Shown one piece after another: positions 43,915 through 62,761 of a stretch of DNA of 64,000 nucleotides (position 1 is the first letter of the stretch; every line of letters starts with the position of its first letter). The position numbers and the translations under genes were made by a program. The notes beneath the pieces were generated by a model. It was not told the origin of the DNA. It did not search any database and worked only from the letters and a program-made list of their open reading frames with translations. Origin of the DNA: Paramarasmius palmivorus (taxonomy: Eukaryota > Basidiomycota > Agaricomycetes > Agaricales > Marasmiaceae); NCBI GenBank assembly GCA_037176845.1, contig JAYKXP010000003.1:372001-436000 (forward strand), in the 5' to 3' direction.

Positions 43915-45909
43915 TCACTTGCGGCAGTTCAAAGACTCGTCCCAGCGCTCAGAACTAACACCCTGAGCGACGATGAAAAGTCCTGACGGATCGTACACGT
44001 CCTTAATTTCTAAAAGCCGTTCATAATGACTTCCGAACAGGGTATGACGGAAGTCCTTCTCGTACAAGGACCCCTATGAGAAGCATAATTTTAGAATATA
44101 AACAGTGAGCAACCAACGCGGAACGCTCACCTCGTTGAAATACGTCCCTGCGCCAGGTTCTATGCTCTCATAGAGTTCATCCCATGAACGAAGTAACTCT
44201 CTTTTACTCTCTATCTCTTCCGCTGTCGCCCCCTCAGGCCAACTAACACCGTTAAAAGCATGAAATATAGCATCACGCCATCCAGGGTGCACCCCCACAG
44301 AATCTGGATCAACACGATTGACAGCCCCTCCCGCAACATTGCTAGTACCAATTTTAATAAACTTCAGTGATGCGCATGAGGACATTGACTTACTTTAAGA
44401 CAGCACCAAAGGAAAGTATAACGTCCGCCATTTTTTCATGGTTCGTCTCCAAGGTCTTCCGACTGTAAAACCTTCCTGATATCTCCGAATTGAATCCAAC
44501 TTGTGGACCAATGACATAAAACTCCTCACGATTCCAATCGTGAAACGACGCGAATGGTGCCGTATAAACGGACGAATCATTAGACTTGCTCTTTACGAAT
44601 TCGGCAAAAGGAGCGAAAGTAGCATTAGCGTCTGCATCCGACACATTGGGAGCTAATAGTCTCGAACTCAGGGATGTATTCAAGATCCATGAGTAGCCTC
44701 CCCAACCACTGTCAGCGAGGCCGGGCTGGATCCTGAAGAATTCAGCTGTGACTTCGCGTGCGACGTCCAGCGAAGAAAAGTTGGCGTCGATGAATACGGC
44801 AGAAACAGGAGTCGATGGATGAGTAAGGTGGGTCACAGAGGTGACAACACCAAAGGTTCCGCCTCCTCCACCCCGCAGAGCCCAGAAAAGGTCGGGGTTT
44901 GTGTATGCATTAGCGGTCAGGTACTCGCCTGAAGCGACTACTACGGTAAACTGGAGAGCGTTGTCGACACCTGGACCAGATAAGATGAACGGGGAGTATT
45001 CTGGGGGTACGCTGGGTACGTACCAAGTCCATATACAGGAGCCAAAGCGCCATGTCCGCCTCCAAGCATCCAACCACCAGCGGCACCTACTGACCCGCCG
45101 TCAGATGATCCGCCGACGATGACACGACCGTTCTGTTCAGCGGCGTCGTACGCTTCATACCACTGAACACCAGCCCCAAAGGTGAGAGCTAGATACACAT
45201 CTTAGTTTATGATCCGAATTCTGTGCGATACCGGTGCCATACTCACCCTTGAACGACTCGGAGCTATTGGAGTTGCTCGGAACAAAGGCATCATGATAAG
45301 TGATCTCCTTGAGATGGTGCGTCCAAATCATGAACGCATTGCGAGCGGTACTTCGACCTAAGAGATCGTGCCTAGTGACTGGTTTCAGCTAACAAAGCAA
45401 CTGATACCAAATTATTGAAAATCTTACCCGGTATTCTTAACAACCAGTCGCAAGTTATGTTCAGCAGCGAAACGAACAGCAGCTTGTATATCCTCAGCTG
45501 AGCGCGCGTCTACACCAACAGGAGGGATGCTCCCTTGCTCGCAAGGAAACCCAAGAGTGGAGTTCAGATAGCACGCGCTGATCGTGCCATTGGGGAAGAT
45601 GTAATCTTCGAAGTTTGGGTACTGAAAAGAACCAGGTTGGTCTGAAATCCATCTGCCGTCTTGGCTATTTTCTTGTACATCTGTGCAGTTTTCCGAAGGG
45701 TTCGAAGCGGGATAACAAGAGGCCTCAGGCGGTGAAGGGTAAATAAGAGGCTGAGAGAGACGCGACTCGAGTTGTGCAAAATCGGCTTCCGAAGGCCAGC
45801 AGGGATCACCGTATAAGCATCTGCAGTTGCTTGGTGGGCTTTCTTGAGCCAGGGCGGGAACGGATGATATCAAGAAGGCAAGTGAAGCAACGAAAATCTT
45901 GGACTTCAT
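43915..45909 (-). CDS. Secreted FAD-linked oxidase (BBE/VAO family), diverged third copy
   Basis: The start is MKSKIFVASLAFLISS at 45909, with a signal peptide ending around ALAQ. The layout is the same as the tandem pair at the left edge: CRCLYGDPCWPSE, NTG/HDLLGRS-type junction (the printed bases give DLLGRSTARNAF, with the FAD-binding His before it), [49 protein letters not shown] and [14 protein letters not shown]. It ends DESLNCRK with TGA at 43915-43917. Intron positions are conserved, but the protein differs by about a quarter to a third of residues by eye, so it is an older duplicate. It lies 39 kb away, just before the accessory block. Confidence 0.88.
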
Positions 45910-45944
45910 TGCAGCGCTGGGGCGAATCATGATCGTGACCAACG

Positions 45945-46060
45945 AAAGCACCTTTTAGATTTATATCTCAAGGCCCTAAACAGCTTTCAAGGGATGTCGT
46001 GACCTGGGAAACAAACATGGAAGTGAATTGTGGAGAATTGCTGATTCTTCAACGGGTAGA
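45945..46060 (-). promoter_or_regulatory. Partly conserved promoter of third oxidase copy
   Basis: The word CAGCTTTCAAGGGATG and then ..GACCTGGGAAA.. and GTGGAGAAT.. keep the order seen at 5063-5145 and 1999-2050. The TATA region is weaker (TTATATCTC). Conservation beyond the coding part suggests shared control of all three copies. Confidence 0.5.
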
Positions 46061-47075
46061 CCTTTACCTATGACGATATCCTTCCCGCCCCAGTTTTGCA
46101 ACCTTAGTATGTAGATCTTCTCGATATCCAGTGTACCTGTAGCACTAAGTGCATGTCTTCACCGCATCCTACGGGGTGCTTGCTGGATACTAGATGACTT
46201 AGACCAACGCAACCTGAACGCAGTCGAGACCTGCAATTACTATAACATTTTTCATTTGGAGGCTTCCATCTCTTTCAGCGCGCTGCCAAGTTTGTACCAG
46301 CAGTCGAGCCAAGAATAAATCATAAGCATCTGGAGACTCCAATTAATGACGAAGACAAGACGAGCCATTGGAACTTGCCTTGTACTTCGGCTCGATGCCG
46401 ACTGTGCGACCTCTCGTTCTATACGACTGGTTTTCGTCTAGTTTCAGGCGTGAAAACTGTGACCACGCTGGAAGTCAGATACCAAAGCCGTTAGATGCTA
46501 GCAGACGCACTTGCTACAAAAACACTCACCGATTACGGAAATCATTTCCATAGACTTCCCGGGATGGATGCTGCGGCGTGTGTGCAGTCGATGGTTACCT
46601 CCCGATAAGGAACCACGAAGAGAAGGCAGAAATGATGGACAGGAAACGTCTCACAGAATCGGGACCGAAGTGATGACGCAAACTTCGCGGTCGCACGACA
46701 CCGACGCCGGCGCATAGACAACAGTGACAAATAAAAAAAAGAGATGCCAGAGCAATACATAGCCAAACAATGTGAATTATATTTGTGAATTCTTTTCCTT
46801 GGTCTCCAACACGCGTCGAAGGCACGAGGCTCCCCGAAGGTGTATCGAATCGGCGAAATCTTTTCTACGGCCACTCAGTCGTCACCACTGTGCCTGCAAT
46901 GATCTCCGTGCGCCTTCGTGAACATCTCCCGCGGAACGCAGCTCCCTAGCAATAGGCATTGCAAACCCTTCGTAGAGGTTTGACGATGCAAAGCTCTCCT
47001 GGTAATCAAGTTATATGATGGGTATTCATCCACACCTAAATAAAAATTATTCACGAAACCAAAGTCCTCGGTGGC
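46061..47075. other. 1-kb spacer at the left edge of the accessory block
   Basis: No supported gene. A 110-codon minus frame (46542-46874) has no family motif. I looked for, but did not find, terminal inverted repeats matching sequence near 62 kb. Confidence 0.4.
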
Positions 47076-50000
47076 ATGAACCTGTCCCTGTTGCTGAATC
47101 CTTCAGCCCCGACCTCACCTTCGAGGCCGTCCAGAAACTCTTCAGATCCCGAACACGAACTTCAGTTGATGGATGCACCCTCCAGAGTGCAGTATTCAGT
47201 ATACCTCAACAGTCAGACCACACTTATCACTCTGTATCACTATCCCCCGAATGTCAGAGGCATACCATATCCGCAAACACACGCTTCTGGTAGCATTGGA
47301 CATCTCTTCCGAATCGACCCCGAAAACCCGTGCAATCCACTCAATAACATGGCGTACTCGCATGGAGGCAACAAGGGAAGTCGATATGGTGTCAAAGTTG
47401 CTGTCTTAACCGATGGGCAAGGTGCACTTGTACCATGTACCAAGACTACGACTACATGCCGCGGTTGCAAGAAATGTCCGTTTGTTGATGTTCAACAAAT
47501 CAGTCAAGCACATGTCTCTGTGGAAGAACAGGGCTATCCGCACTATACTGCAGTCGAACGCGACCTCGCTGCCTGCACTCCAGAGCGGGAGGTGTTTGAG
47601 GCGACTCTGGGACTATTCGCAACATTCCGAGATCGTGGATGTTTCGCCCCTCTGCAGCAGCCTACATACTACACGGAGGCTGAAGCTCGAGTCCTGGAGG
47701 ATGTGCGCCGCACACCCACCAAGGCTAAGCGAGGAGCCACAATCAAAGAGACCTGCAAAGGCCGACTCTTACTCATTCAACAGCCGGACGGTGTGAAAGT
47801 CCAGTACGAGCACTGCTTCATTGTACGTCGCAATACTCATAAATGATTAGATGTCAACATTATCATCCCACTCAATCGAAGGCGCATACATCACGGTTTA
47901 TCTCCGCAGGACGATACCATTTATCCTACCTCACCGCCCTGTTTAACGAAGATGGACCTACTATCGCACAATACGAGGAGGCGATGAAAGTCAATGGGTA
48001 TGGCCCTCTAGTTCCTTGTAACACAGTACGAAACTTTCGTGCCGTGAAGACGAATTGTGGTAAGCATGACCATGCGCCTCTGACAAGATGTGCCTCTGAC
48101 GTTGACAAATTCCATCCTACAGACCTACACCATCGAGACTCTGACGGAAGACTTGTCATGCAAGAGATGAAAGATCATCCTTGTGACAGCAAGTTCATCG
48201 TCTACGAGCCCGACGAGGAATACCGACAGGCGTGCCCGTACATCTTGGTTGTATGCCGATATCCTCACACCCATCCTCCACCCATTCTCAGCAAGACCCC
48301 CTTTCATATCCGGAATAGTGTCTTGGAATTTCTCGGGACACTCGAAGACCTTCCCAATCTCACCGCACGGAGACTTTTGCGAAGTGATGTCGCGCTGCAA
48401 TATCTCCGAGGGCTCCTACCACAGATACCACGGCCTACCTTTGTAGATCTACATGTTTCTTTCAACAACAGAGATCACTTACAAAGCCTTATTGACCAAG
48501 CACAACAAAGTTTGTATCCGATGGGCACTGGCTGGGAAGGTAAGAGGCGCTTCGTCAGCTGACGACGTAGCTGACACGATTGAAACAGGTGCCAAATACC
48601 TCAAGGAGCAGGAAGATCTTTTATTACCCCCTGAGAAACGCTATATACGATCAATCCAAGAGCATAGACTTGTCGGTGTGGACGATCTCGATGAGCCATT
48701 GCGATTCGTGATATGCATCAAGAGCCAGAATTCTCACCGACTACTTACCTCTGCTCGACACATTCAAAGTGATATTGCCTTTAAACGGGTCGTGCACTGG
48801 TATGAGTTTGAAATTACGGGCTTTGATCGTTCGCTACAAGCCAGTGGGTACCAACAATTTACTGTAATACTGAACATTACTGACTGGAAATCACAGCTGT
48901 TTGCTATGTTCGATGCTACATTAACAGTCAAAGTGCAGAGGCACATTGTATCTTACTCTTGCAGATCCACCGAATAGTGCTGGAAGACACTGGGCGCTCG
49001 CTGCAATTCCGACACCTGCACTCCAGTGCCCAAAACGATCCAAACTTTCAGGGAATATTGTCGTGGACAGTCGACCATCATGCCGGTCAAGGCAAAGGTA
49101 TGCTATGAGACTCTTCGTTCTTTCAGTCTCATTAACCAAACAGTACACCAGGGATCGGTCTTTACATGCAGCATATTGCCCCCCATGACAAGTTTGACTT
49201 GCACGAACCTGGTCGATTGCTAACTGAACTCGGACCATATGACCACCTCAAACGCATTTTGCGACTATGTGTTGCACATTATTACCGCAAGATACAGGAA
49301 GGCCACTATGAACCTGCGATTGGCCAAGCCATGCGAAGTCTCGCATGCTTTCGCCACCAGTCTTGGGACCAAACGATTGCAACAATCGAACAAGGCGATC
49401 AGAAAGCCAAAAGTACGCACACCACCGTCACTATTCGTCTCTCAAACTCAGTGTGTCTTTCAGATTGGCTTGTGCATAAGCAAAATCTCAAGTTCGCCTT
49501 CCCTGCTCTATGCTGGGAGAAGAGTTTTATACCGGCGCCAGTGTGGCAGGCGTCAGAGGCAACCAGCAATATTGTCGAGTCCTCACACTGGGATATATTG
49601 ATTGATACAGGACGTGACTGTACTCTCGTTGGTGGTATCATAAGGGCTCAGAAGTATGATAACATGCAAGATCAGACGAATCAGGTGCGCAAAAGCATGA
49701 AGACACGAGGACCGCTGACTTTATATCTTTGCAGACCATGGAGAACACAGGAATACCCCGGCGTTATCGACAGGTAAATCCCACGAATCGTGAATACAAC
49801 AGTATGAGGCGGCATAGTGAGTACCTTAATGTCAGCCGCACCTCGCCTCTGACAACAGTCGCATTTAGCCAACTCGCGCGTGCAACAGTTACAATCCCAG
49901 GATCAGTTAATCGAAGGTATCAACAATGCTCTCAAGAAAGCTAGGGATGCGGTGCTTCGAGCTCAAGCTAGGCTTGCCCAAGCTGAAGAAATGCAGAGTC

Positions 50001-50152
50001 GTGGAGGGACAGATAACCAAGCCGTACAACGAGCAGCGCAGCAGAAACAAAAGGCCATGAGGCAATGGGAAAAGGCTCGAACCACCAGCGAAAATGCTCG
50101 ACAAGGGGGGATGGGGTCTGGAAGCGTCGCTGTGGAAATGTATGAGATCTAG
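47076..50152 (+). CDS. Transposase-like protein of a multicopy basidiomycete family
   Basis: A large gene with several introns. N-terminal part: a Cys motif CRGCKKCPF and PEREVFEATLGLFATFRDRG. Middle: YLTALFNEDG, RLVMQEMKDHPCDSKFIVYE and CPYILVVCRYPHTHPPP, a Cys/His-bearing stretch, then FVDLHVSFNNRDHLQSLI. Core: LTSARHIQSDIAFKRVVHW, then after an intron LSWTVDHHAGQGKG, then LRLCVAHYYRKIQ, then FALPAL..CWEKSF read as FAFPALCWEKSFIPAPVW and TSNIVESSHWD. The Asp..Asp..C-x2-H..Glu spacing recalls the DDE core of MULE-like transposases; that is inference. I recall this family as abundant in mushroom genomes. The tail (from about 49860) is a coiled coil, ending VEMYEI. The first splice (near 47822) does not keep frame by any simple GT/AG I could find, so a frameshift or a missed small exon is possible. 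Confidence 0.6.
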
Positions 50153-51745
50153 GAAGCTGTGGAAGTGTGGAATGCCCTTTTTTTCTTGGTAGAAAGCACT
50201 GTCACGAGCGCCTCGGACACAGCCTCGGACATAGAAGACGCCTCGGACATTCCGGTCCAATATCAACTACCAACATCTCGATATTTATGAATACCTCTCC
50301 CGACAGTCATACGCTGCTGGTCCAGTACTTTATTGCCTATCATCACCGCAAGTTGAATGAGTGGGCTCAGTGCTGCGAATGTGAGGGAAAGGCAATAGTA
50401 AGGACGATGCCTCGGACACCCGGACAATACTTCCGCCTGTCAAAGCATTCCATTTCAATTTTGGGTAGACTACCCCAATTCTCGACACCGGTGGTGGATA
50501 ATTAACCAATTGAAAAAACTCTCCAGGTGGTACGACTCGGTAACACGATTACCGTCGCGATTTCCAGACCTCGCGACAGTATTCTCAAAGTGATCTCCTG
50601 TCACCCTAAACGAAATCGAATGCATCGCTGACACGCGTAGAATTCGAATACATCGCTGACCTGCCTCGAGGTTGTCGATGTGCCTCTGAGGACTGGAAGA
50701 ATCCAACCAAAATGGCGGTAATTAAAGTTCTCTAATTTTCTTTCAGGTTTCCCCAACGGACTGTATTGCTCTAGTTGACTCTGTGTGGAATACAAGGTCC
50801 AACCAAAGCTGGGACGTTGGCATAAAGGAAGGGTCAATATTCTCACCAACTCAGAATCCACCCACTTCAGTTCTTCTGCGACTTTGCCTCAAACGTCATC
50901 GACTTCAAAGTTCATAATGTCTCCTCCATCTGGAACCTGATATTTCTCAAATAGTACGGCCCTTTCTATATAGTCAGAATAGAGCGATAGTCTGGATAGT
51001 AGCACATGCGCACCTTATTACGGAGGTATTGCAGGACTGGGTTTTCGTTGGAAATTCATCTGACTATATAGTGCTATATAGACGAGGTGTAACTCCGTGT
51101 CAGAAACGGTCGATTTGCCGAGAGGTGTTATGGTCGGTACTTCAAAGTTCTCTGTACATTCTCCTGCAGTACCCTTGTTAGTTTATTGTATGTATAAAAG
51201 CTGCCCGACGTACGAGTCACACATGCACTCCTTTTTCCCTCGTCCACTTAAGGTCCACTCCCAAGGCGCCGCCTGTTGTCGGATAGTGTCGTAGCATATA
51301 TATCAAGTAGATCGAAGTTGAATACTGTAATAACCTCTAGTAGACAATCTGAACGAATGATCATACAACTTCCATACAATTATCAGATACGTTGAATGAT
51401 TCTAAGGCCTGGGGGAATGCTAGCAATCGAGGGGATGGACGATTTCATGGCGTGCGGACGCGAAAAGCTGTTGGCCAATCAAGGCGCTCGGAGCAGGGCA
51501 AAATGAGGAAATCGATGCCGTACCACCGGCTTGATTCGGTTCCACGACGTACTATATAGTCTGCGATAGTCGCAGATAGTTGCACCACTCCCTCTGATAG
51601 TTAGGGGGCGAATATATAGAGCCCAGGTGAGCTATCTGGTCTATACGACTATTTCCACTATATAGGACCATATAGTGTTTGGACGAGTTCCAGATGTCCA
51701 ACCACACCACCCTTCGTCCCCGGACTCTCGCTCACTCCTGAACAG
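50153..51745. other. 1.6-kb spacer with GCCTCGGACA cluster and TATAG palindromes
   Basis: No supported gene. Four GCCTCGGACA copies start at 50210, 50222, 50240 and 50409. From 50960 to 51690 a run of CTATATAG and ACTATATAGT words appears (near 50967, 51065, 51075, 51551, 51657 and 51670), with a perfect hairpin CTGCGA-TAG-TCGCAG at 51561-51575. The right part should be the promoter of the next gene. Confidence 0.55.
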
Positions 51746-52527
51746 ATGGCGGCATTAATCCAATTCGCCCAAGCCTTCATGGGTAAGTTCTTCCGTGAAT
51801 ATTTGAACGTCCACAATGCTGATGAACCACCTCAACATTATAGGCAATGTCGCCACCAGTACCAACGGCCTCGGGAACGTAAACGCTCGAGGTGCCTCTG
51901 ACATGCCTGCTGTCAGCGGCGCCTCTGGTAACGCCGGCGCCTCTGACCTCCCGAGCGGCGGTGTTAATCTCGGAGGTCCACCTCTTGACGTTGCAACTCA
52001 AGCTGGAGGAGGGGGAGGAGGAGGGGGCGTTGCTGTGGCTGGTCTCTCCGCCGTTGCTGCAGGGCCTGGAACCTCTGTCGCAGGCGCAAAACACCATGAC
52101 GGTATGATACAGTTTCCTGTCCACTATTAACTCAAGCTCACCTTTACTTATGAATGTTTCTAAGGTCCCCGTTGCGTCCATTGTGGACGAGCCAATCCTT
52201 TGGACCTTCCCGAAGCCCGTATGCGTTGGTATTCTATCTATTGCGGGCGTATGGTCGGATGGTGTCTCGGCTTGTAAGTTTTTTTCAGGCAAACAATTTG
52301 ATACGTGACTAATACCAAGCAATAGGGAGCGTGCCACACAACTAGTCCTGGGCGTAAGCGGACAGAGTTACGAATTTTTTTGGAACCAGGCTGACGCCAG
52401 GAAGGCGTATGAAGATAAGCGTAACGCTCGCCAGACTATGGTGAATGGTAACCCCGCAGAGAACATTATCTTGACCTTGGGACCCGGTGAAGGTCGTCTC
52501 TTTACCCGTGTTGACGAGACCGCGTAG
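51746..52527 (+). CDS. Small protein with RNase H1-N/viroplasmin-like domain
   Basis: Exons start MAALIQFAQAFM (51746), then a Gly/Ala/Ser-rich low-complexity exon with GASDMPAVSGASGNAGASDL, then GPRCVHCGRANPLDL (one CxxC), MRWYSIYCGRMVGWCLGL, and a last exon ERATQLVLGVSGQSYEFFWN with ADARKAYEDKR. The pattern W-Y-x-V-x-x-G-R-x-x-G ... V-x-G-x-S-x-x-x-Y-x-x-F ... A-x-x-x-Y fits the small domain that lets RNase H1 hold RNA:DNA hybrids. No catalytic RNase H part is present. The frame upstream of the ATG would add FVPGLSLTPEQ, but reaching the Met at 51694 needs a one-base frame change, so the internal start is used. Two YGCCTCTGAC words are part of the coding sequence. Confidence 0.6.
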
Positions 52528-53046
52528 ATATTTTTATCCATATCATGGTCTGTTTTGACTTGCATAGTTGTCCAAAAATATGTTCGAAAGTTTGTATTGA
52601 TAATGTAGATCAATACCGTCTCTGTTTATCTTGACTTTCATAGTTGTAGTGTGGCTGTTAAAAATGTGTCCGAAAATTTGTATTGATTGGTTGCAAAAAA
52701 TATACTTGAAGTGGTGTTGAATCGGGTGTAATAATCACTGCCAGTGCCTCTTACCATGTGAATCGCCTCTGACAAAGGCTTGTGATGCGAAACGCCTCTG
52801 ACATGACACGTTTCGCGCGACATCCCGAATATATTTTCACCGGTGTCAATACAGCACTATATATTCATAAAATGTAATATCTGAGCATGGGATGAATACC
52901 CTGACTGACTCCCTTGTTGGCAAACTAGCGAGGAAAATACGGGAACACGAAAATATGGGGTGTCAGAGGCGAGACGCGTTTGGATGACGTTTGATTGATC
53001 CGAGGGGTATTACGGCAAATGTACACGTCTTTTCTTCACCACCACC
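52528..53046. other. Spacer with direct repeat and three motif copies
   Basis: 519 bp. A direct repeat lies at 52555-52602 and 52631-52688 (TTGACTT.CATAGTTGT .. AAAATTTGTATTGAT type). YGCCTCTGACA words start at 52765, 52794 and (reverse) 52961. The right end is the JmjC gene's promoter. No gene seen. Confidence 0.5.
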
Positions 53047-55437
53047 ATGTCGAGCCTACTTCAGGTTTATGAACGCTTTCGCGACGATCCATTGGAAATA
53101 CTCCCCCAGGATGGCGAATCAGAAGAAGAGTGGCTGGACAGAATCAATCCGGATGGAGAACCCCTTCACCCCGCCAGCCTTCGGTACTTTCGAACTCATC
53201 CCTCTCAGCGTCCAGAGCCCATGACAGAAGACGCATGGAGGCGAGGTTTTCATAGTAACTATCGGAACCTAATATCGAAACAGAAACGGTATCTTGTACC
53301 TCTGTCAGGGAATTCCGTCATACTGAAAGCCGATACAGAAGTCCAGACCGGGTCAAAGAACAAAATCGCATTAACCAGGCCAACTCCAGGTACGTATATA
53401 ATGGAGTCATTCTCAGCCCTGTCTCTTAACTTGGATTATGTAGAGCCCGAAGGAAAGATGGTAACATCCCAAAGCTATCCTCGAAAGACAAGCCGAAGAG
53501 GTCGAAAACTACGCGTACCGTAAAGGCATTGAAGTGCAAGGCAACGGAGGTTATCGGTAACACAGCCAGTACATCCCCATCCATCATCACAACATCACTC
53601 TCAGAGGCTCGCCAGATCTTACGCCTGGACCTATATGCATTTCGCCATAAGTTGGTCCCCCACACAGCGGAGTCTATTTGTTGGATCGGAGATAAAGGTT
53701 CGGAGGTGTATATGTGTTTGCCGCAGATAGAGGACGAGGAAGGCAAAAATGTGGTCAAGCCGGTGAGTGGTTCGTCATCATTAACCTACCTTTACACTGA
53801 CCAGATATACAGGTTGGGGATTACATTCGGCATCTGAGCCAAACACCGTTCGTCGAACAGTCGGGGAAGAGAGTATTACGTTTGGAATCATCGCAGCTCC
53901 CGGCAAATGAAGAGGATCTCTTGCCTATAATCCGAGAGGCATTGGGCCGTAACCAGATGGTACACCTGGTCGGTTTTCGCAAGCACGCGGTACAGCCCTT
54001 CGACCTTTCAAACACTCCAGTCCTCAATGCAGCGTTCCTCGGTGCTCGTCATATCTCCCCTTTGAGGCCGGCATCGATTCATTGTACGAATCTACCTACT
54101 ATATCTCTGCCTATGTGCTAACCAACACTCAGCCCTCAAGGAGACCACTGCGTACCAGTTGGGATTGGGTAAAGGACAAGGACGTGTTAGAGATGAAAGG
54201 GTGCAAGATTTCATGGACAGGATGCGCTTATGGCAGCGGATAGAGTGTATTCTGGCCATTTCGATGACAGGGATGACATTTGGTCACCCCGTAGAGTAAG
54301 TCTTTGAAGTGCCTCTGACACATCAGACGCCTCTGACAATCAAATCACAGTCAGTTGAATGACGTCATCGCCGCTTGCAGGAACCTCGTTTACGAGGAAG
54401 TGAACGACCATGCCAAACACGCTATATCTCATGCTACATGGGGTTTGTTACACCACGCGTGCTACTTTTCGTTCAACCATCATGACGCCGGAGGGGAGTT
54501 GGCCGCAACTGCAGTTGAACACGGATTCAAAATATGGACTGGGTATTTTCCATCTGACGACACCCCACGAAGTACTCAGATGTCACAAGTGAAGCATTTA
54601 TGCTCCGAACCTTTAGAGAGCGATTTTGGCGACAGTGGCATAGAGACCGTTACAATTCTCCTCCAGCCAGGCGATGTTCAGTAAGTGTTTGCATCGTCAT
54701 TTGCCTTCTGACTGAAAAATCACACTCGATTAGTTTGCAACCTCCCGGACTGGTTCATTCCGTATATACTCCACTGCCTTGTTTCATGCTAGGGTCCAGT
54801 TGGTGGATGTATGATTCCTTGCATCTGACGGAAACGTCACGGCGGATTGATGGGCGAAACGGGGATCTGGTTACCAACCAGGATTTTGATGAGGAGATCA
54901 TTTTCACCCAGCTTGTGGCGTTGCTCTTTGGCATGAGAGTTGTACGTACTCTCAATCCTACATATTGTAAGCCTCCTTCATCTACCGATATGGTGCTTTG
55001 AGGTATTGACTTGAATGGTATTAGGTTTCTACCAGATTCCCATCCTGGCACTGTGCGCTATGATCTTGGATCCCCAGACGTACGTCTCGAGCTCCAGTAA
55101 GCTAACCAAGGTCAAGGGAATTCGGCCTGCAGAGATGATCCCCCTACAATCTTCTTATTTGGACGCATCACGGGCAGCACTTGCACTAACCAAGTACATT
55201 GAACCATCTGTGACGACAGCGGTGGAGTTTCCCCAAGTTGCTGATCCGCCGGAGTGGACCAAAGGTATCAAGGAAATACGTCGCTATCTTGACTCAATAA
55301 GAAGTGTTCGTTTTGGGTGTCAGGATGTGGGGGAGGCCATTCGTGCACGGCTAGATCAGAGGCGAGTGTGTGATCGAGGCCGAGTGCTGGATCCTGAGAC
55401 GTTGGACAAAGTTCTTGAGGCTATGGAAGTGGTATAG
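53047..55437 (+). CDS. JmjC-type Fe(II)/2-oxoglutarate oxygenase-like protein
   Basis: About seven exons. The N-terminus MSSLLQVYERFRDDPLEILP is acidic; a basic middle segment (KDGNIPKLSSKDKPKRSKTT) needs the AG acceptor inside GTAGAG near 53443. Next come VGDYIRHLSQTPFVEQSGKR and NQMVHLVGFRKHAVQPFD. The oxygenase core has HACYFSFNHHDAGGELAATA (Fe-binding H-x-D), GFKIWTGYFP (a Lys that may hold 2-oxoglutarate), TILLQPGDV and LQPPGLVHSVYTPLPCFMLG (the distal His). The C-terminal helical part ends LDKVLEAMEVV at 55437. A histone or nucleic-acid demethylase or hydroxylase role is possible; the substrate is unknown. The intron 54299-54352 carries two YGCCTCTGACA words. Confidence 0.75.
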
Positions 55438-55516
55438 AGCTGTTTCCTGTATTTGTTTGTCGGGTTAAGAGACGTGAGATGTGTACTGTAGGCTGCGCTA
55501 TTCATGGATATCTCAG

Positions 55517-55790
55517 CAGGATATACGGTAGCCATGATTATGGCTTTGTGGCTAACTTGAACACCAATCATGTAGGATATACGGATGTCAGAGGCGCTAA
55601 TAAATACTGAATACCTGTCAGAGGCGCCCTTACACAGATAATTCTTAGACGGAAAGGTAGCCACAGCGAGGAATTCGTGTTCAAACTTCAATGATAAAGA
55701 CATTAACATTTTAAACATGGCAAACGTATACTCTACATAATTGGTGTTCAAACCGCAAAGCCATAATCATGGCTACCGTATATCCTACAG
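55517..55790. mobile_element. Foldback/MITE-like inverted repeat
   Basis: The left arm, about 55518-55575 (GGATATACGGTAGCCATGATTATGG and on), is matched with few mismatches by the complement of about 55734-55788. The arms are about 55 bases and the loop about 160. Two TGTCAGAGGC words (55586, 55616) lie just inside the left arm. There is no coding potential inside. A clear target-site duplication could not be fixed. Confidence 0.65.
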
Positions 55791-55974
55791 CGATAAGATA
55801 TTGACGCGTCTGACGGATCGCCTCTGACACCCAAGAAGTTTTGCCTCACGTGCGGCTTAGCTGGCCTGTCGCTTATATAACATGGTTCGATTTTGCAGTC
55901 CTTTTTTCTCCAACCACAACGTCCTGTGCTATCCTGTGCTTTTTCGTTGTTTTGTGTCCTCTCTGCTCGTAATC

Positions 55975-57252
55975 ATGGTGTCCCGATCACAACGTAAGTT
56001 CCCCGACATGATCGCTCGTATGTTATTACCCTAATTTGTCAATCACTCGGCTATCATAACAGAAAACTCCCCGTCAAAGGAAGCCCGATTGCAAGCTATC
56101 CGTGAGGCGCTTGAAGCATCACAGGAAGCGACGCAAAACCACCAAGGTATGTACAGCGACACCATCGGGTGATAAAGGAGGTCCTAATTGTCTTATCTTC
56201 AGCTTTGAGTGAGGCCGAGGTTAAGATGGAGCGAGCCAACGCAGAATGGGAGGATGCCGAAGCAAACCTCACCAATTGTTTGGATCAGATGACATTGTCA
56301 GCTGACAAGTATTCAGCGTCAGTGGGTGCGTGTCCAGGAGCTCATTGCGTACCAGTATAGATCTGACTTATTCAATAGCGGCGGTTCGCAACATCTATGG
56401 AGTTACTCCTCATGGCAACGTGTCGACTCAAGCGGATCATCCCCGCACCCCTAATCGTCAGCATACGAGGAGCGCTGTCGAATCTCCCCGTACACGCACT
56501 CCTCGCACTCCTCGCACCAACTCTAACCCCAATAACACTCCCAGAGCGAATGCTGGTACTAACAACCCTGAACCTGCTTCAACCCCCACTCCAGCCCCTG
56601 CGCCTGATGTATTCCAAGATGGATCACCCCTTCCCAACCCCGGTGGTCTTTATCGATCCTATCGCCAAGTCAGGGGCAAAGGTCTCGAAGCGACTTACGT
56701 CGGCAGTTCATTCCCTGCGTATCTTGTCTACGTTGGTCCTAACAAGGAGCACCGTTTGTTCTATTCTTGGTAAGAAGCACATGTACCAATCACTTCGCGC
56801 AAATCTGACTTTTATCACAGGGAGACCATTCTACAGATTGGTGTTGAAGGGGCGAAAGAGTGGCTCGCGGGTGCCAAGATGACGTATTACAAGGGCTTCA
56901 CATCGTCTGAGCGTGCTCGGCAGTACTTCCGAGAATGTGAAGAGACTGGGGTTTTTGACGCGCTCAAAGTCGAGCCGCGGCAAAGGGGCGGTACCCTCTA
57001 CTACATTGTCTCTCGGGGTGTTAAGCCAGGGGTCTACTCCACCAAGTGAGTGGTTTTTTGACCATGCCCTGCACTCGCGCTAATTTTATTTGGGGTTTGA
57101 CTAGACATGAACTAATCCGTGACGGTCTGCAGTGGCGTGGAGGCCAGGTCACTGTATGGGATGGTGAAGAGGAAGGCGCAATGCACCTCTTGAACCATTG
57201 GCGTGCCGAACACAAGGTGGGGTGTTACACGCCGTTGGGTGGGCCTCCTTAG
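55975..57252 (+). CDS. Protein with two RNase H1-N/viroplasmin-like domains
   Basis: Exons start MVSRSQQ (55975), then NSPSKEARLQAIREALEASQ (coiled coil), LSEAEVKMERANAEWEDAEA, then a Pro/Thr/Asn-rich linker (TPRTPRTNSNPNNTPRA). Domain 1: FPAYLVYVGPNKEHRLFYSW, ETILQIGVEGAKEWLAGAKM, TYYKGFTSSERARQYFRE. Domain 2: GTLYYIVSRGVKPGVYSTKH, LIRDGLQWRGGQVTVWDGEE, EGAMHLLNHW. Each has the Y-x-V-x-x-G ... G-V/L-Y/F ... A-x-x-x-F/L order of the RNA:DNA-hybrid-binding fold. No nuclease domain follows; stop at 57250-57252. It shares the fold with the gene at 51746, on the other side of the JmjC gene and in the same direction, which suggests related roles. Confidence 0.6.
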
Positions 57253-58077
57253 TTACTTCTGGTATGGAGTTTGTGTCTTGTTGCCTTGTAGAACTTGTTG
57301 CCTTGTAGAACTTATTGTTTTGTACCCCCGGGTTTTCTCGTAGAATTTGTTGTGTTGTACGTTTGTCTGCAATGAACGATTGCCCTGTTTGATAATAGCA
57401 CTTTCCTGTTTGTGTGGAAAATGTGTAAGAGGCGCCCGACATTGATTTGTTTCTTGTCAGAGGCGATCCGCCTGTGAAGTGATACCTCCGGGCGTGCTTA
57501 TCCCAACGTCTGCTCTATTCAAATCAATCCTTCTGGAAACAAAACATAACTGAAAGAATGTAACTGAAAGAACGTTAATCAATGGCATTCAGTTGATGTC
57601 AACTAATGTCAGAGGCGCTGACCTGTTTCGTGTCAGCCTTGTAAGGTGATACCTCCAGGCCTGCCTGTCACAACGCCAGCTCAAATACATCTTTCTGAAA
57701 CGAAACATAGGTGAAAGATCGTCCATGAATGGTACTCTCGGTTTATCTTGGCAGTGGTGTCGATGTCAGCAAGTGTCAGAGGCGCCTGCCCATCGACTGG
57801 ATATATTTATCAATACGTGCTCACTCCCAGTTTTAAATAAAACAAATTGTTTATACTGTTGAAAGGTGAACTAATATACAGGCGTAACAAAGATATATAT
57901 CTACACTGAAGATGAATTATAGATACTGCAGTCCTTCAAGAAATACGGCATCAGCACTAAACGGCGGGCTCAAGAAACTCAACTATGCTATCGCGGGCGT
58001 CAAAAGTCCAAGAAATACAAGATACATAACAATCTTTCAGCCATTCGGAGGCTTCTGGATAGGACACGTAGATGTCC
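57253..58077. other. Spacer with tandem and direct repeats
   Basis: 825 bp with no gene. Near 57284-57350 a 20-base unit (TTGCCTTGTAGAACTTGTTG type) repeats two to four times with decay. At 57443-57560 and 57615-57720 lies a direct repeat of about 110 bases with GTGATACCTCC and GAAAC.AAACATA..TGAAAGA. TGTCAGAGGCG words start at 57455, 57607 and 57774. This is the 3' side of two convergent genes. Confidence 0.55.
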
Positions 58078-61000
58078 TCACTCGTCGCAATAGTGAATGA
58101 TACCACCAGCCATGAAATATACCATCTCACACCGGTCGCACTGTTGAAAGTTAGCCAGGAAAGCCTCCATTTCTTCCAGAGTGATGCCGAATCGGTAGGC
58201 AGCGGGTCGAATGTCTTTGACGGCCTCTTCAAACTCCTGGTGGACCACATCTTCGGAGACTGGAATGGGATGATAAGAGTACAGTGACAGATCATAAGTA
58301 CAAAGGGACATACTGGGTTTTTCATACCCGTTCGGAGCCATAAACTTAAACCGTGCACCTGTGTGGCATATTGACATGAGCGGAGAGGTTGAACAGATGA
58401 GATAGCAACTAACCTCGAGGGAATGGTTCATCATCGTCGGAGTTCGGTACGCGTTTGGGTTTCTTCGGCTCTGTTTCGACGTATTTCACCTGGCGCTTGG
58501 GTCCAGCCAATGCAGATGAAGATCCTGACGCGCGTTGGTCCGAGTGGGCGCTTCGGTTGGCAAGCTTTTGAGCGACCGCCTTGCTCGCGTCTAGGAATAT
58601 ACCGGGAGGTACAGGTTTGAAGGTTGGCTGTGATGGTCTGGATGGAGCTTCGGCCTTGCCTTTGCCCTTGGATGGAGCTTCAGCCTTGCCTTTGCCCTTG
58701 GATGGAGCTTCGGCCTTGCCTTTGCCCTTGTTGGTTGTCGACTGGGTATCTCTGACCATGATCACCGGCTTCTCGACTTTGGGGCGTTTGATGACGGGCC
58801 GTGGTTTGGGTTTGGATGAGGATGGCTCATCTCCAGTGAGATCAAAGGCTGTGGAGGGGGTGCGGCCAAAGGGAACTCGGCTACGTGCAGAGAGCTGCTT
58901 GCCTTCAGGCTCGGAATCACTTGAAATAGAGATGGCGGAGCTGTCAGGAGACGCAGGCCGTTCGCTGTTTTGGGTGGTTTTCTCCTGCTTGATGACGACA
59001 TTGTCGATCTTCTTCGCATAGGCTTGCATTACTTGTGAAGGTGGCGGTAGAGGAGAGGAGTTGAGGGGAGGCAATGTGGGAAATGGCTTGATGTCAGAGG
59101 CACGCGACGCAGCTTTGTCTTTGGAGCGTTTTGGCGCTGGCTGCTTCGAGTTTACAACTCGGCGAGCTTTCTTGCGAACTGGAGGTGACACGGTGTCCTC
59201 CTCGTCGGATTCTGTCACTGCTGTCACTTGGCGAGTTTTTTGGCGGGGCTGGGTTGGTTCCGGTGGTGGCGGAGTATACTCTTCGTCTGAAGTGACGATT
59301 TTGCGTGCCTTTTTACGAGGCTGGGTACGAGCAGGCTCGTCGGAGTCGGAGTCGGAGTCGGTGATATCAATCTCGTCAATGGGACGCTTGATGGATTTGG
59401 AGGAGGTTGGTTGGGAAAGAGATGAGGGTCGACTGACAGAGCCCTGCCCTTTGAGTACATTGCGGGGCGGTGTGGGAGTTGCGAGGTTGGATGATTTTTG
59501 AGTCACCGACGTCATAGGACTGACTTTCTTCACAGCCCGGGAAGGAGTGGGGGTGAATAGAGTGTTGTTGTCCATCGGGATGAAGGCGTCAGGTGAATAT
59601 GTTGGGTTGAGCAACTCCTTAGGGACAGCTGTGGGCCCAGAGTTACGAGGTGATGGCGTTTTGGCGGTCATTTTGGAGGTCCCAGAGGCGGACGCACTCT
59701 TGCGAGGGGTAATTTGGGGTGTCGAAGAGCTGGAGTGTCGTCGGGGACTTGTAGATGTCGCACAAGGTTTCATATTGGGTCGGGTCATATCGAACCCAAG
59801 AGCAACCCCTTCATCGTCGGGTATTAGCTGATTATCTGCGACAGGATATTCCACTGTGACTAATGTCAGCGGAGGGTATGTTGTTGTACAAATAAACTGA
59901 CCGTTAAGTGGGTTGCGTAACGTATAGATTGGGTCTGTGGTATGTTGTTCTCGAAATCGCGTAAGATGATCTGGGATCAAATGAAGCCATCAGCGGATGG
60001 CTACAAACGAGAACCCTGAGGAACTTACAATGCATCCCACACTTGGGAAATCCTGGGGGTGCATCACAGACCATAACATAGACTCGGGGATTGTCAGGAT
60101 TGTCGAGATTGAGTTTGGGAGGTGCACAAATCTTGACTGCGCGTCCACAACGACATTTAGCTTGGCATTTATGCTCAATGCAATAGGGTTGTAGACGGCA
60201 GTCTGGTATTGATGACACGCGATTGCCTACCAATTCAGCTGGCCTAATAATAACAACAGCATCAGTGTTAGTTGACAAGCACAGGCAAGCATGACTGACA
60301 GGTAATAAGGTTCTGCTTTTTGGGCGTCTGAATTCCATGTTGACAGACATCCGAGCTGCTCGAACTGTTTGATTACGCTGTGTGAGGCTTGCAGTCAGAA
60401 ACTTAAAGAGTGATGAGTGAGAAGATTATTCACCGAACGAAATCCTGAGAATTAGCTTCGAATTCAGCTCGTTTTTTTGCCTCAGGGGACGTGAACGGGT
60501 TCATGACTTCTTCGGTATTTTGGTCAGATGCGGGGATGTCAGAGGCGGATTCAGGGATGTCAGAGGCGCCCGGAGTTATCTCAGGGTTTTCAAAGACAGG
60601 GTTCTGCGTGGCAGATGGTGAATTCGCGGTGTCACAGGGTAGGTGGGCCTGCTCGGTGGGCGGAGATTGACTGTAAGTGGTGGCTGAGGGTGTTACGTTT
60701 TCGCTGGTCCAATCTGGCAAGTGCTCGACTGACCCGGTATTGTTTTCGTCAGCGCCCCAGTCAAATTGGAAGTAATCAGTGAATGGCGGTGTGCAGGGAA
60801 AGGATGAGTCGTCAACAAGCGCAGGGGTTTCCGTAGGAAGTTGTCCGTCAGGTTCCTCGTCAAGTACGGCAGTGTCAGAGACACTTTTTGATAACTCGAT
60901 GGCGTCCGAGTCAGAGGTGGTTTCGTGTCTGATGTCAGAGGCAGCAGCGTGAGATATGTCAGAGGCAGTGGTTGTATCCGCAACTGTAGTGGAGAAATCA

Positions 61001-61824
61001 GTACTTCAACGTGACTGTTCTGAAGGAATAAGTACTTACTAGAGACACTTTTTGATAACTCGATGGCGTCCGAGTCAGAGGTGGTGTCGTGTCTGATGTC
61101 AGAGGCAGCAGCGTGAGATATGTCAGAGGCAGTGGTTAGAGGAGAGGTTGGGGTTGTATCCGCAACTGTAGTGGAGAAATCAGTACTTCAACGTGACTGT
61201 TCTGAAGGAATAAGTACTTACTAGAGACACTTTTTGATAACTCGATGGCGTCAGAGGTGGTTTCGTGTCTGATGTCAGAGGCAGTGGTTAGAGGAGGGGT
61301 TGGGGTTGTATCCGTAACTGTAGTGGAGAAATCAGTACTTAAACGTGACTGTTCTGAAGGAATAAGTACTTACTAGTCTCGGTGGCAACAGAAACTATGG
61401 TATTTTTGTCTGCAGAGGTGTTGATCTGGTTCCCTAGAGTGGATTAATGATCAGTCGTAGTGCATGCTCCCCAGAGATGACAACCGTATACCTGGTTCTG
61501 AAGTGTCGTGAGCACCAAGGCAAGTGAGTGGTTCACTCTGGATAGGCGGAGATACGTTAACGGAATCTGTAGCCTTAATCAGAGTTTGATTGGAAAAGAG
61601 TGGTGAGACAGCCTACCTGAGTGACTGTTGGTCGGGTCCAGATCCGGTATCAAGGTGGTGGGAGAAGGTTCGACGAGGAGAGGTGGTGGCGAAGGTTTTG
61701 AAATTGGTGAAGACTCTTCCGCAACAACGGGGAGCTGAGCAAGAGGAAGATTGGTGCACCTAGTAGCAGGTGTCGTAGGTGGGACTGAGAGGGACTTGGA
61801 TCGAGAGCGTGTAGTGGGTGCCAT
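58078..61824 (-). CDS. Large nuclear-looking protein with GRF-like zinc cluster
   Basis: The start is MAPTTRSRSKSLSVPPTTPA at 61824. The 5' half is a series of short exons, three of them near-copies encoding TASDISHAAASDIRH-type text. One continuous exon then carries ELSKSVSDTAVLDEEPDGQL and NPFTSPEAKKRAEFEANSQD. The zinc-cluster exon (near 60050-60240) has YCIEHKCQAKCRCGRAVKIC and, further on, NPRVYVMVCDAPPGFPKCGM, close to a GRF finger (C-x-C-G ... N-x-x-R-x-Y-x-x-C ... C-G). The 523-codon exon (58409-59980) is disordered, rich in Ser, Pro and Lys, with basic runs and three KGKGKAEAPS repeats. The last exon has EVKIF-free text ending CDRCEMVYFMAGGIIHYCDE, another Cys set. GRF fingers bind single-stranded nucleic acid in other proteins; the role here is unknown. 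Confidence 0.6.
58641..58730 (-). repeat. Three perfect 30-bp coding repeats (KGKGKAEAPS)
   Basis: Three head-to-tail copies at 58641-58670, 58671-58700 and 58701-58730, differing by about one base, encode Lys-Gly-Lys-Gly-Lys-Ala-Glu-Ala-Pro-Ser. They sit in the disordered part of the GRF-like protein. A recent slippage origin is likely. Confidence 0.9.
60882..61374 (-). repeat. Triplicated exon-plus-intron unit in the GRF-like gene
   Basis: Units start near 60882, 61040 and 61222, each about 155-180 bases, and nearly identical. Each contains one short exon and one complete intron that starts GTAAGTACTTATTCC and ends with an ACAG acceptor. Frame is kept in each unit. Exon parts differ by small in-frame losses of ASD-encoding words. 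Confidence 0.85.
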
Positions 61825-62761
61825 GCTCTCTTCAGTTCAAGTTCCTTGTTAAATACCATTGCCTCTGGTATGACTTGCCTCGGACATTCGGTATCAAATC
61901 TTCGTCAGCCTGGGTTGGATCGAGGGTGGCAAAGACTTTTGCTGTGTCTCCGAGGAGCATATTGGGCCATGTATTCGAAAAGGTGGCTTCGCAGAACAGA
62001 TGCAGGGCGTGTTCGAAAGGGCTAGAGCGCTTTGGACCTAAAAGATCGTTTGGAGAAGTAGAAGACGCGGTCAGCTATGGAAATGAAGCAACCGTCAGCG
62101 CGTCAGCCGGTGCCTCGGACCTGTCAGCCGGGGGGAGGAAGCACATCTCGGTATAAAAAGCATCGGGTGGAGATTCGACATAATGAGTAAGGTGAAAGGT
62201 ATTGTAGGCCTATCTGGTGGGTCGAAAAGAAATTGTGGGTATGTCTCGGTGTCCATAGTGGAAACAAGGGACTCTCAAATGACGAAGAAGACTCGATGCA
62301 AGATGCGAGAGGTGGGCGCATGTCTCGGTTTCCATGGTTGAAGTCGATGACAGAGAATGACAGAGAAGTCACTTCATTAATGAGGCCACGAGGTGGAGGA
62401 GGTGAAACGTGTACTGGAAACGTGTCGTGAATATTGAATTTTTAATTATCATTATTTTTTATTTATTCTTGTTTTATTGCGATCAAAACCACGGGATGCG
62501 GCGGGAGGCGGAGCACACATCACATGACACTCCGGAGCGCAAGGGACTGCAGATCAGAAGTTCGTTGACACTTTGATGGGCCTTATCGGGAGGTAACCAT
62601 CGACCTGTGTCTCTGCTGCGGCTATCCAACGAACATTGAGAGCGTCAGGAACGAGTGCCGGATTTCGGTAAGCCGTGGAAATCCGGCACGGCAAATGTCC
62701 GGACCACGTCATTGAGTTCCGTGCAGCTTCCGTGTCGTGTCTGTACAGCAATAACGCCTCT
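61825..62761. other. Spacer closing the accessory block
   Basis: 937 bp between the divergent GRF-like gene and SEC22. GCCTCGGAC words at 61877 and 62112 and a GCCTCTGGTA at 61861 mark the right limit of the motif. Beyond about 62430 the sequence is AT-rich then resembles a normal promoter for SEC22. No gene seen. Confidence 0.45.

Follow-up and report, generated by a model that had tools for sequence, protein, structure and literature searches.

A class II transposon spans the word-bearing block

The window analyzed here is a 64,000-nucleotide stretch of the mushroom-forming fungus Paramarasmius palmivorus (contig JAYKXP010000003.1, positions 372,001 to 436,000 of the forward strand; coordinates below are those of the window), in the right part of which a ten-base word, GCCTCTGACA, is densely repeated. 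The block that carries the word is one DNA transposon (class II) of 16,036 bp (46,578-62,613), with inverted repeats and a target-site duplication at both ends. The conserved 24 bp of its terminal inverted repeat, GTCGATGGTTACCTCCCGATAAGG, lie at 46,587-46,610 on the plus strand with nine variable bases outside (46,578-46,586), and are matched by the right copy on the minus strand (62,581-62,604). Direct repeats stand nine bases outside GTCGATGGTTACCTCCCGATAAGG on each side: the 9-mer TGCTGCGGC (46,569-46,577 and 62,614-62,622) occurs twice on the plus strand of the window, once per end, and not on the minus strand.

The inner 17 bp of GTCGATGGTTACCTCCCGATAAGG were found exactly only four times in 68 Mb, at the four ends of the window element (contig C3) and of a syntenic, diverged copy in opposite orientation on contig C8 (708.5-723.2 kb). 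These two elements have diverged to ~66% nucleotide identity, with the ends better kept than the middle. A looser end pattern matched 21 genome places (reversed control, 0), and elements complete at both ends were recognized on C3, C8, C181 (24.2-38.9 kb) and C1 (1,318.6-1,333.6 kb), after which they are named below; 74% of the C181 element and 88% of the C1 element were read, and statements on their content refer to these parts. Terminal inverted repeats were present at both ends of all four, and a target-site duplication in three: 9 bp in C3, 10 (or 11) bp in C8 (ACGACACATA, whose one extra base may be real or due to chance) and 9 bp in C181 (GCGATGAGA). For C1, no convincing duplication was found, only a 6-bp match away from the place expected from its ends. 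Single ends of further copies were located on C28, C45, C11, C8 (at 1,054 kb) and C297, with variant ends elsewhere. The first four run into contig ends; in several cases a contig breaks off within an element of this type, suggesting additional similar copies as the cause of the breaks.

An earlier interpretation made from the window alone (hereafter the sequence-only reading) had set a conserved region at 1-47 kb against an accessory block in which the word occupied introns, spacers and exons of unrelated genes. The border exists, and is the transposon end at 46,578. That inverted repeats and a target-site duplication mark out the whole block as a single transposon had been missed; its genes share one element and are not unrelated neighbors.

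The element encodes a transposase, a JmjC-like protein and further cargo

Target duplications of 9-11 bp and a DDE transposase with an IS256-like fold and a CxxH motif between the second D and the E are hallmarks of Mutator-like elements (MULEs), to which IS256-type transposases are linked. The first gene of the element (VNI00_001015, P0001; nine exons, 47,076-50,152, plus strand) encodes a MULE-like DDE transposase with a D, D, CxxH, E signature, the CxxH lying between the second D and the E, and a fold model closest to ISCth4; duplications of 9-11 bp, as in Mutator-like elements, flank three of the four elements. The UniRef name "MULE transposase domain" is attached to P0058. The Pfam MULE model gave no match in 29 members, nor in the window core and five homologues, and a sequence search of the PDB with the transposase returned ten rows only, with expect values (E) of 0.58 or worse and mostly coiled coils. 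Pfam and NCBIfam scans of exon pieces and whole proteins likewise gave nothing significant for the transposase or the JmjC-like protein.

The JmjC-like dioxygenase gene (VNI00_001017, P0062; eight exons, 53,047-55,437, plus strand; UniRef name "JmjC domain-containing") encodes an HxD motif at residues 392-394, His467 and a basic stretch after residue 80. Putative gene 2 (51,700-52,523, plus strand) was recognized by tblastx to C8 and a splice model, and is homologous to the N-terminal part of P0063 in the C8 element, whose annotation joins the JmjC part to gene 2. Putative gene 3 (55,975-57,252, plus strand) has a weak match resembling an RNase H1 N-terminal domain (Pfam Cauli_VI, E 0.23, under the cut-off). 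Both putative genes rest on our own exon models, and their ends are uncertain. Gene 4 (VNI00_001019, P0065; 58,078-61,824, minus strand) encodes a long low-complexity protein of 1047 aa that, judged by eye, is probably disordered; a 30-bp coding tandem repeat of 3.1 copies lies within it at 58,639-58,730. Genes 2-4 were not found in the parts of C181 and C1 read, and the only internal parts common to all four elements were the transposase, the JmjC gene and the word.

The word is concentrated in the element

Exact GCCTCTGACA occurred 23 times in the window between 47,252 and 61,282, whereas 100 shuffled sequences contained 0.18 copies on average and at most one, none reaching 23. The sequence-only reading had counted 22 copies at 48.0-61.3 kb; the dense word is real, and the copy at 47,252-47,261 on the minus strand had been overlooked. 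Its other descriptions of the word were borne out: both orientations are used (8 plus, 15 minus), the preceding base is C or T in all 23 copies (14 C, 9 T), and no exact copy lies at 1-47,251 or beyond 61,282. The 9-mer GCCTCTGAC had 26 copies in the window, every one inside the transposon. About 19 of the exact ten-base copies are independent, as a coding repeat present three times contains five of them (60,933-61,282) and an imperfect 167-bp repeat contains two (57,607 and 57,774). Longer repeats explain only ~7 of 23 copies; one ordinary long repeat family was among the refutations named in the sequence-only reading.

Genome-wide, 174 exact copies of GCCTCTGACA were present in 68.3 Mb, compared to 104 for the reversed pattern; among the first 100 places listed, 23 were in the window and six in the C8 element. 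The even spread at chance level that the sequence-only reading had named as its possible refutation was not observed: in 2,000 simulations, 174 randomly scattered sites never placed more than four in a stretch of 16,036 bp, against 23 in one element here. The genome contains six close pairs of the word preceded by C or T (gap ≤30 bp), and each of them lies in the window; the control gave none. With the shorter core CTCTGAC, 76 close pairs were counted, 38 of them within six related elements (C1, 6; C3, 11; C8, 3; C28, 4; C181, 11; C297, 3); the 38 outside were near the reversed-control level of 31.

One short GCCTCTGAC array with a single GCCTCTAAC, the C8 spelling, was seen on contig C19 (284,230-284,289). 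No transposase, JmjC gene or transposon end lies nearby among the homology and end matches listed, and the array is perhaps a relic or a non-autonomous derivative.

Each element lineage has its own spelling

To rank words, 8- and 9-mers with at least four copies were ordered by their excess over a first-order model in the four elements and 11 control regions. First rank went to GCCTCTGAC in C3 (26 copies, 0.14 expected) and in C8 (14 copies), CACCTCTGA in C181 (8) and GACTCTGAC in C1 (8), with log10 P values of -48.7, -22.9, -11.4 and -10.5; the best among the controls was -6.9. These P values are uncorrected for word number; among the controls, two regions share 2 kb and some contain a stray word. 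A spelling of the same word therefore ranked first in four of four elements, and none of the 11 controls came close.

Counted across C3, C8, C181, C1 and a 46.5-kb control, in this order, GCCTCTGAC was found 26, 14, 1, 0 and 0 times, GCCTCTAAC 0, 10, 0, 0 and 0 times, and ACCTCTGAC, the C181 spelling, 3, 1, 7, 0 and 0 times. The corresponding counts were 1, 0, 0, 8 and 0 for GACTCTGAC, 0, 0, 0, 3 and 2 for AACTCTGAC, 1, 0, 1, 4 and 0 for AACTCTAAC, and 6, 3, 0, 0 and 0 for GCCTCGGAC. The table of spellings by element is near-diagonal, and after merging sites within 200 bp only 5 of 20,000 permutations were as extreme. The related pattern ACACCTCTGAC had 64 places in the genome, nine of them in the C181 element and elsewhere never more than two per 15 kb. 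For YGACTCTGACR, the only tight cluster among the first 100 of 288 places listed was the C1 array. The spelling GCCTCGGAC contains a CpG; it was observed in the window at 50,210-50,418, 61,877 and 62,112 and in the C8 element, and may represent the site in a form sensitive to methylation.

Two explanations bear directly on these counts. The sequence-only reading had considered the word to be the footprint of a very short mobile unit, and flanks do differ between copies, as a self-mobile sequence would have it. The flanks of the 26 nine-mers, however, have in common only a C or T before and mostly A(T) after, so that no shared ends beyond the word were found (no search for duplications flanking single copies was made); in addition, related elements spell the word otherwise and close pairs outside the elements are near the control level. 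We give this idea next to no credence. Alternatively, the words could be recognized by the host, for example as silencing seeds, which would suit sites that are element-restricted and dense. Such sites should disappear from an element over time, but they were kept despite the divergence between C3 and C8, and host recognition is accordingly very improbable.

Placement of the words in introns and spacers and before the JmjC gene

Within the transposase gene, the word was located in exon 1 (47,252-47,261, minus strand, antisense), in intron 2 (48,076-48,085, plus), where the variant GCCTCTGACG follows at 48,092-48,101 (plus), and in the last intron (49,845-49,854, plus); a further GCCTCTGACG lies antisense in an exon (49,551-49,560, minus). 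Four GCCTCGGACA variants (50,210, 50,222, 50,240 and 50,409; together 50,210-50,418, plus) occupy the spacer after the transposase. Putative gene 2 contains one word (51,894-51,903, plus) and the variant GCCTCTGACC (51,939-51,948, plus). Three words then precede the JmjC start by 282 bp (52,765-52,774, plus), 253 bp (52,794-52,803, plus) and 85 bp (52,961-52,970, minus), and two more lie in a JmjC intron (54,311-54,320 and 54,329-54,338, plus). Spacers hold two words at 55,586-55,595 and 55,616-55,625 (minus), one upstream of gene 3 (55,820-55,829, plus) and three between genes 3 and 4 on the minus strand (57,455-57,464, 57,607-57,616 and 57,774-57,783), the last two in the 167-bp repeat. The remaining words are in frame in gene 4 exon sequence on the minus strand: one at 59,092-59,101, read as Ala-Ser-Asp, two at 60,537-60,546 and 60,558-60,567, and, in the coding repeat, two at 60,933-60,966, two at 61,097-61,130 and one at 61,273-61,282. 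Two variants, GCCTCGGACA at 61,877 and GCCTCGGACC at 62,112, follow on the plus strand (61,877-62,120).

Per kb of the window element, the nine-mer reached 3.48 copies in introns, 2.56 in gene 4 exons and 1.61 in spacers, a class that here includes genes 2 and 3. The lowest density, 0.43 per kb, was that of transposase and JmjC exons, which hold only 2 of 26 copies. The difference to these exons was significant for introns (P 0.0099) and for all noncoding sequence (P 0.027). By eye, words in transposase introns stand in intron 2 and the last intron of C3 and in a different intron of C8; it seems that word number is kept while positions turn over. A site within 300 bp upstream of the JmjC start was present in all four elements, for which the joint chance computed from each element's own density was 0.0004; the C1 start is approximate, and the C8 site lies in an annotated intron, where the JmjC part is fused to gene 2. 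On C28, an array was likewise found ~90-150 bp upstream of the JmjC start.

Gene 4 exons contain 8 of the 26 nine-mers, all in sense and all reading Ala-Ser-Asp, and five exact copies share one coding repeat. This would be expected if the words were by-products of repeat expansion, chiefly of the gene 4 coding repeat Ala-Ser-Asp-Ile, with no role as DNA, and the copies in C181 and C1 are indeed largely tandem arrays. As 18 of 26 nine-mers lie outside gene 4, five of them in introns, and as C181 and C1 have words though gene 4 was not found there, we regard a pure by-product as scarcely credible. The word rather seems to be tolerated in gene 4 where the protein is of low complexity, in the least harmful frame.

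The sites upstream of the JmjC gene in four of four elements would equally suit plain promoter or operator sites for an element or host transcription factor, with no chromatin-modifying step. A host factor leaves the private spelling of each lineage unexplained, and the intronic and start-distant sites exceed a promoter's needs; with an element-encoded factor, this explanation overlaps the one preferred below. We consider it unlikely, if a serious contender.

A third possibility is that the words are transposase-binding repeats that bring the element ends together, a role played by subterminal repeats in CACTA elements. All elements read carry a transposase and the spelling follows the lineage, as this requires, but the words are not mainly subterminal and are spread through introns and spacers of the whole element. 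The nearest strict sites to the C3 ends are 0.67 and 1.3 kb away, GCCTCGGAC variants lie within 0.5 kb of the C3 right end and one GCCTCTAAC within 0.44 kb of an end in C8. In C181 and C1 the nearest sites found are 2.9-3.9 kb from the ends (unread parts of C181 may hold single copies), and end recognition by the transposase is disfavored because of this distance; we judge it distinctly unlikely.

The JmjC-like protein is a predicted chromatin enzyme

The metal-binding HxD...H triad of the JmjC-like protein is in the right order, with H392, D394 and H467 invariant in three of three aligned proteins, and HxD and the His are found in C1 as well. The JmjC family was the best Pfam family of the core in all three proteins, although all scores were below the Pfam cut-offs. 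From motif, source name and sub-threshold profiles, the protein is probably a dioxygenase and a predicted chromatin enzyme. No relative was found in the PDB by sequence. Comparison of its fold was set aside, as the model was too poor (mean predicted local distance difference test score, pLDDT, 38.8). On contig C48 (200-257 kb), the JmjC-like protein has four matches that are restricted to its N-terminal domain, at 28-37% identity and with no JmjC core listed, and this domain may thus exist in other genes.

A proposed self-addressed anti-silencing system

Because the transposase, the JmjC gene and the word are common to all four elements, the predicted binder of the word is probably the transposase or the JmjC-like protein. 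The upstream position of the sites and their distance from the ends tie the word to the JmjC-like protein rather than to the transposase, and these upstream sites together with the nature of the protein favor a self-targeted chromatin regulator. Taken as a whole, the explanation that we find somewhat more probable than its alternatives combined is that the word is the lineage-specific binding site of a JmjC-linked regulator, encoded by the element itself, that would protect this element from silencing. The steps that we infer are binding, demethylation and anti-silencing: the JmjC-like protein, by way of its helical N-terminal domain and its basic stretch or with the help of a partner, would bind the word arrays and take a repressive mark, most likely histone methylation, off the element that encodes it, thereby keeping the JmjC promoter and the transposase open. 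Arrays and binding surface would drift together, giving each lineage a private address. Two ideas of the sequence-only reading, that the word binds a protein which the block encodes and that it is a target for directed chromatin modification, are retained and merged here as candidate roles.

Several observations weigh against this explanation. The counts in C181 and C1 come mainly from a few tandem arrays, which reduce to two and three merged own-spelling sites, respectively, in the parts read, and the C1 spelling alone is not specific, since outside the element YGACTCTGACR is frequent (288 places, compared to 146 for the reversed pattern). Besides the sub-threshold core profiles, whole-protein Pfam scans gave a JmjC family in only one of three proteins (E 0.2), the fold model built from three sequences was poor, and the basic stretch scored as bZIP only at E 2 in one of three proteins and is not kept in C1. 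The observed-to-expected CpG ratio of the element (0.88, against 0.89-0.93 in its surroundings) gives no sign of escape from methylation. Some gene 4 exon words ride on a coding repeat, and the transposase, being common to the same elements, could itself be the binder. An argument that transposase-only copies without the word would tie the word to the JmjC gene was dropped, as the copies at C11 (915 kb) and C8 (1,054 kb), whose ends match, are truncated where their contigs stop, so that a JmjC gene is possible there; other transposase-only places (C20, C123, C64, C43, C138 and C119) are more distant.

Relation to known anti-silencing systems

According to the passages of PMC5735166 on Arabidopsis VANDAL elements, YAGTATTAY is the word bound by VANC21, and it lies in introns, spacers and terminal noncoding regions. 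VANDAL sites are arranged in tandem repeats that differ from one related element to another, the VANC6 words being AGTTGTCC and AGTTGTAC. The present element resembles VANDAL21 and VANDAL6 with their VANC proteins (same passages) in being a MULE-type element with a second gene beside the transposase, and in having a dispersed 8-9-bp word, mainly in introns, spacers and upstream regions, with tandem arrays and a family-specific spelling. A short noncoding word, tandem arrays and private spelling were all observed here, but 8 of 26 window words lie in gene 4 exons. Unlike VANC, which has DUF1985/DUF287 and is not described as an enzyme in those passages, the partner here is JmjC-like, and the host is a mushroom-forming fungus. 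Neither VANC domain was detected at Pfam E ≤1 in the window models of gene 1, the JmjC gene, gene 3 and gene 4 or in three of three JmjC-like proteins. The system is thus not a VANC by sequence, and would work like VANDAL/VANC with unrelated protein parts. RNA-directed methylation attacks the same noncoding regions of VANDAL (PMC10398659, in part), and co-evolution between the structure of VANC and its target DNA is the subject of unpublished work cited in a meeting report (PMC12859917, in part).

A second comparison is offered by fungal DNA transposons with TET/JBP dioxygenases, known from 11 lineages according to the passages of PMC12730594, where an escape from silencing is proposed. Both kinds of element carry a presumed Fe(II)/2-oxoglutarate dioxygenase with an HxD/E...H triad that would counter silencing. 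They differ in that other lineages are involved (MuDR/MULE is not among the 11 TET-bearing ones), the enzymes are TET/JBP and not JmjC, and no targeting word appears in those passages; the words JmjC, MULE and Marasmius are absent from the main text of that paper. The Pfam Tet_JBP model had no match in three of three JmjC-like proteins, with the limit that distant types escape sequence profiles (PMC12730594, in part). Compared to Mutator-like elements and IS256-type transposases in the passages of PMC6446971, where Mutyl target duplications are 9-10 bp, the element shares the D, D, CxxH, E signature, 9-10 bp duplications and an ISCth4-like fold model, and differs in lacking a Pfam MULE match and in being a 16-kb element with JmjC and other cargo. 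The words JmjC and Jumonji are absent from the main text of that source, and no JmjC gene on a MULE-type or other fungal transposon was among the literature matches listed.

If the JmjC-linked explanation holds, the element would represent a new form of transposon-borne anti-silencing that is neither a VANC nor shown to be a TET-bearing transposon. We also entertain, at slightly less than even confidence, the further-reaching view that a fungal MULE-like lineage evolved, independently of plants, a self-addressed JmjC anti-silencing enzyme steered by a dispersed word, with word and DNA-binding stretch co-evolving and the private addresses GCCTCTGAC, ACCTCTGAC and GACTCTGAC coexisting without cross-talk. 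Sequence-specific anti-silencing with a mapped DNA word has been described for Arabidopsis VANDALs (PMC5735166, in part). A second, fungal case with an unrelated, probably catalytic effector would make private addressing a general escape for selfish DNA without opening the host genome. With three spellings side by side in one genome, co-evolution of protein and DNA can be tested directly; a JmjC protein that has a 9-bp address, if confirmed, would be a tool for chromatin editing.

Related ends and neighboring genes

Ends one or two bases off those of the transposon were seen on C33 (407,469), C192 (9,947), C68 (222,519 and 259,214) and C32 (378,222). No word was found within 1.5 kb of these ends, and C33 and C192 are ~95% identical across 3 kb. 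Just outside the left end of the window element, the list of open reading frames includes frames at 44,074-45,951, which we take to be FAD-linked oxidoreductase-like.

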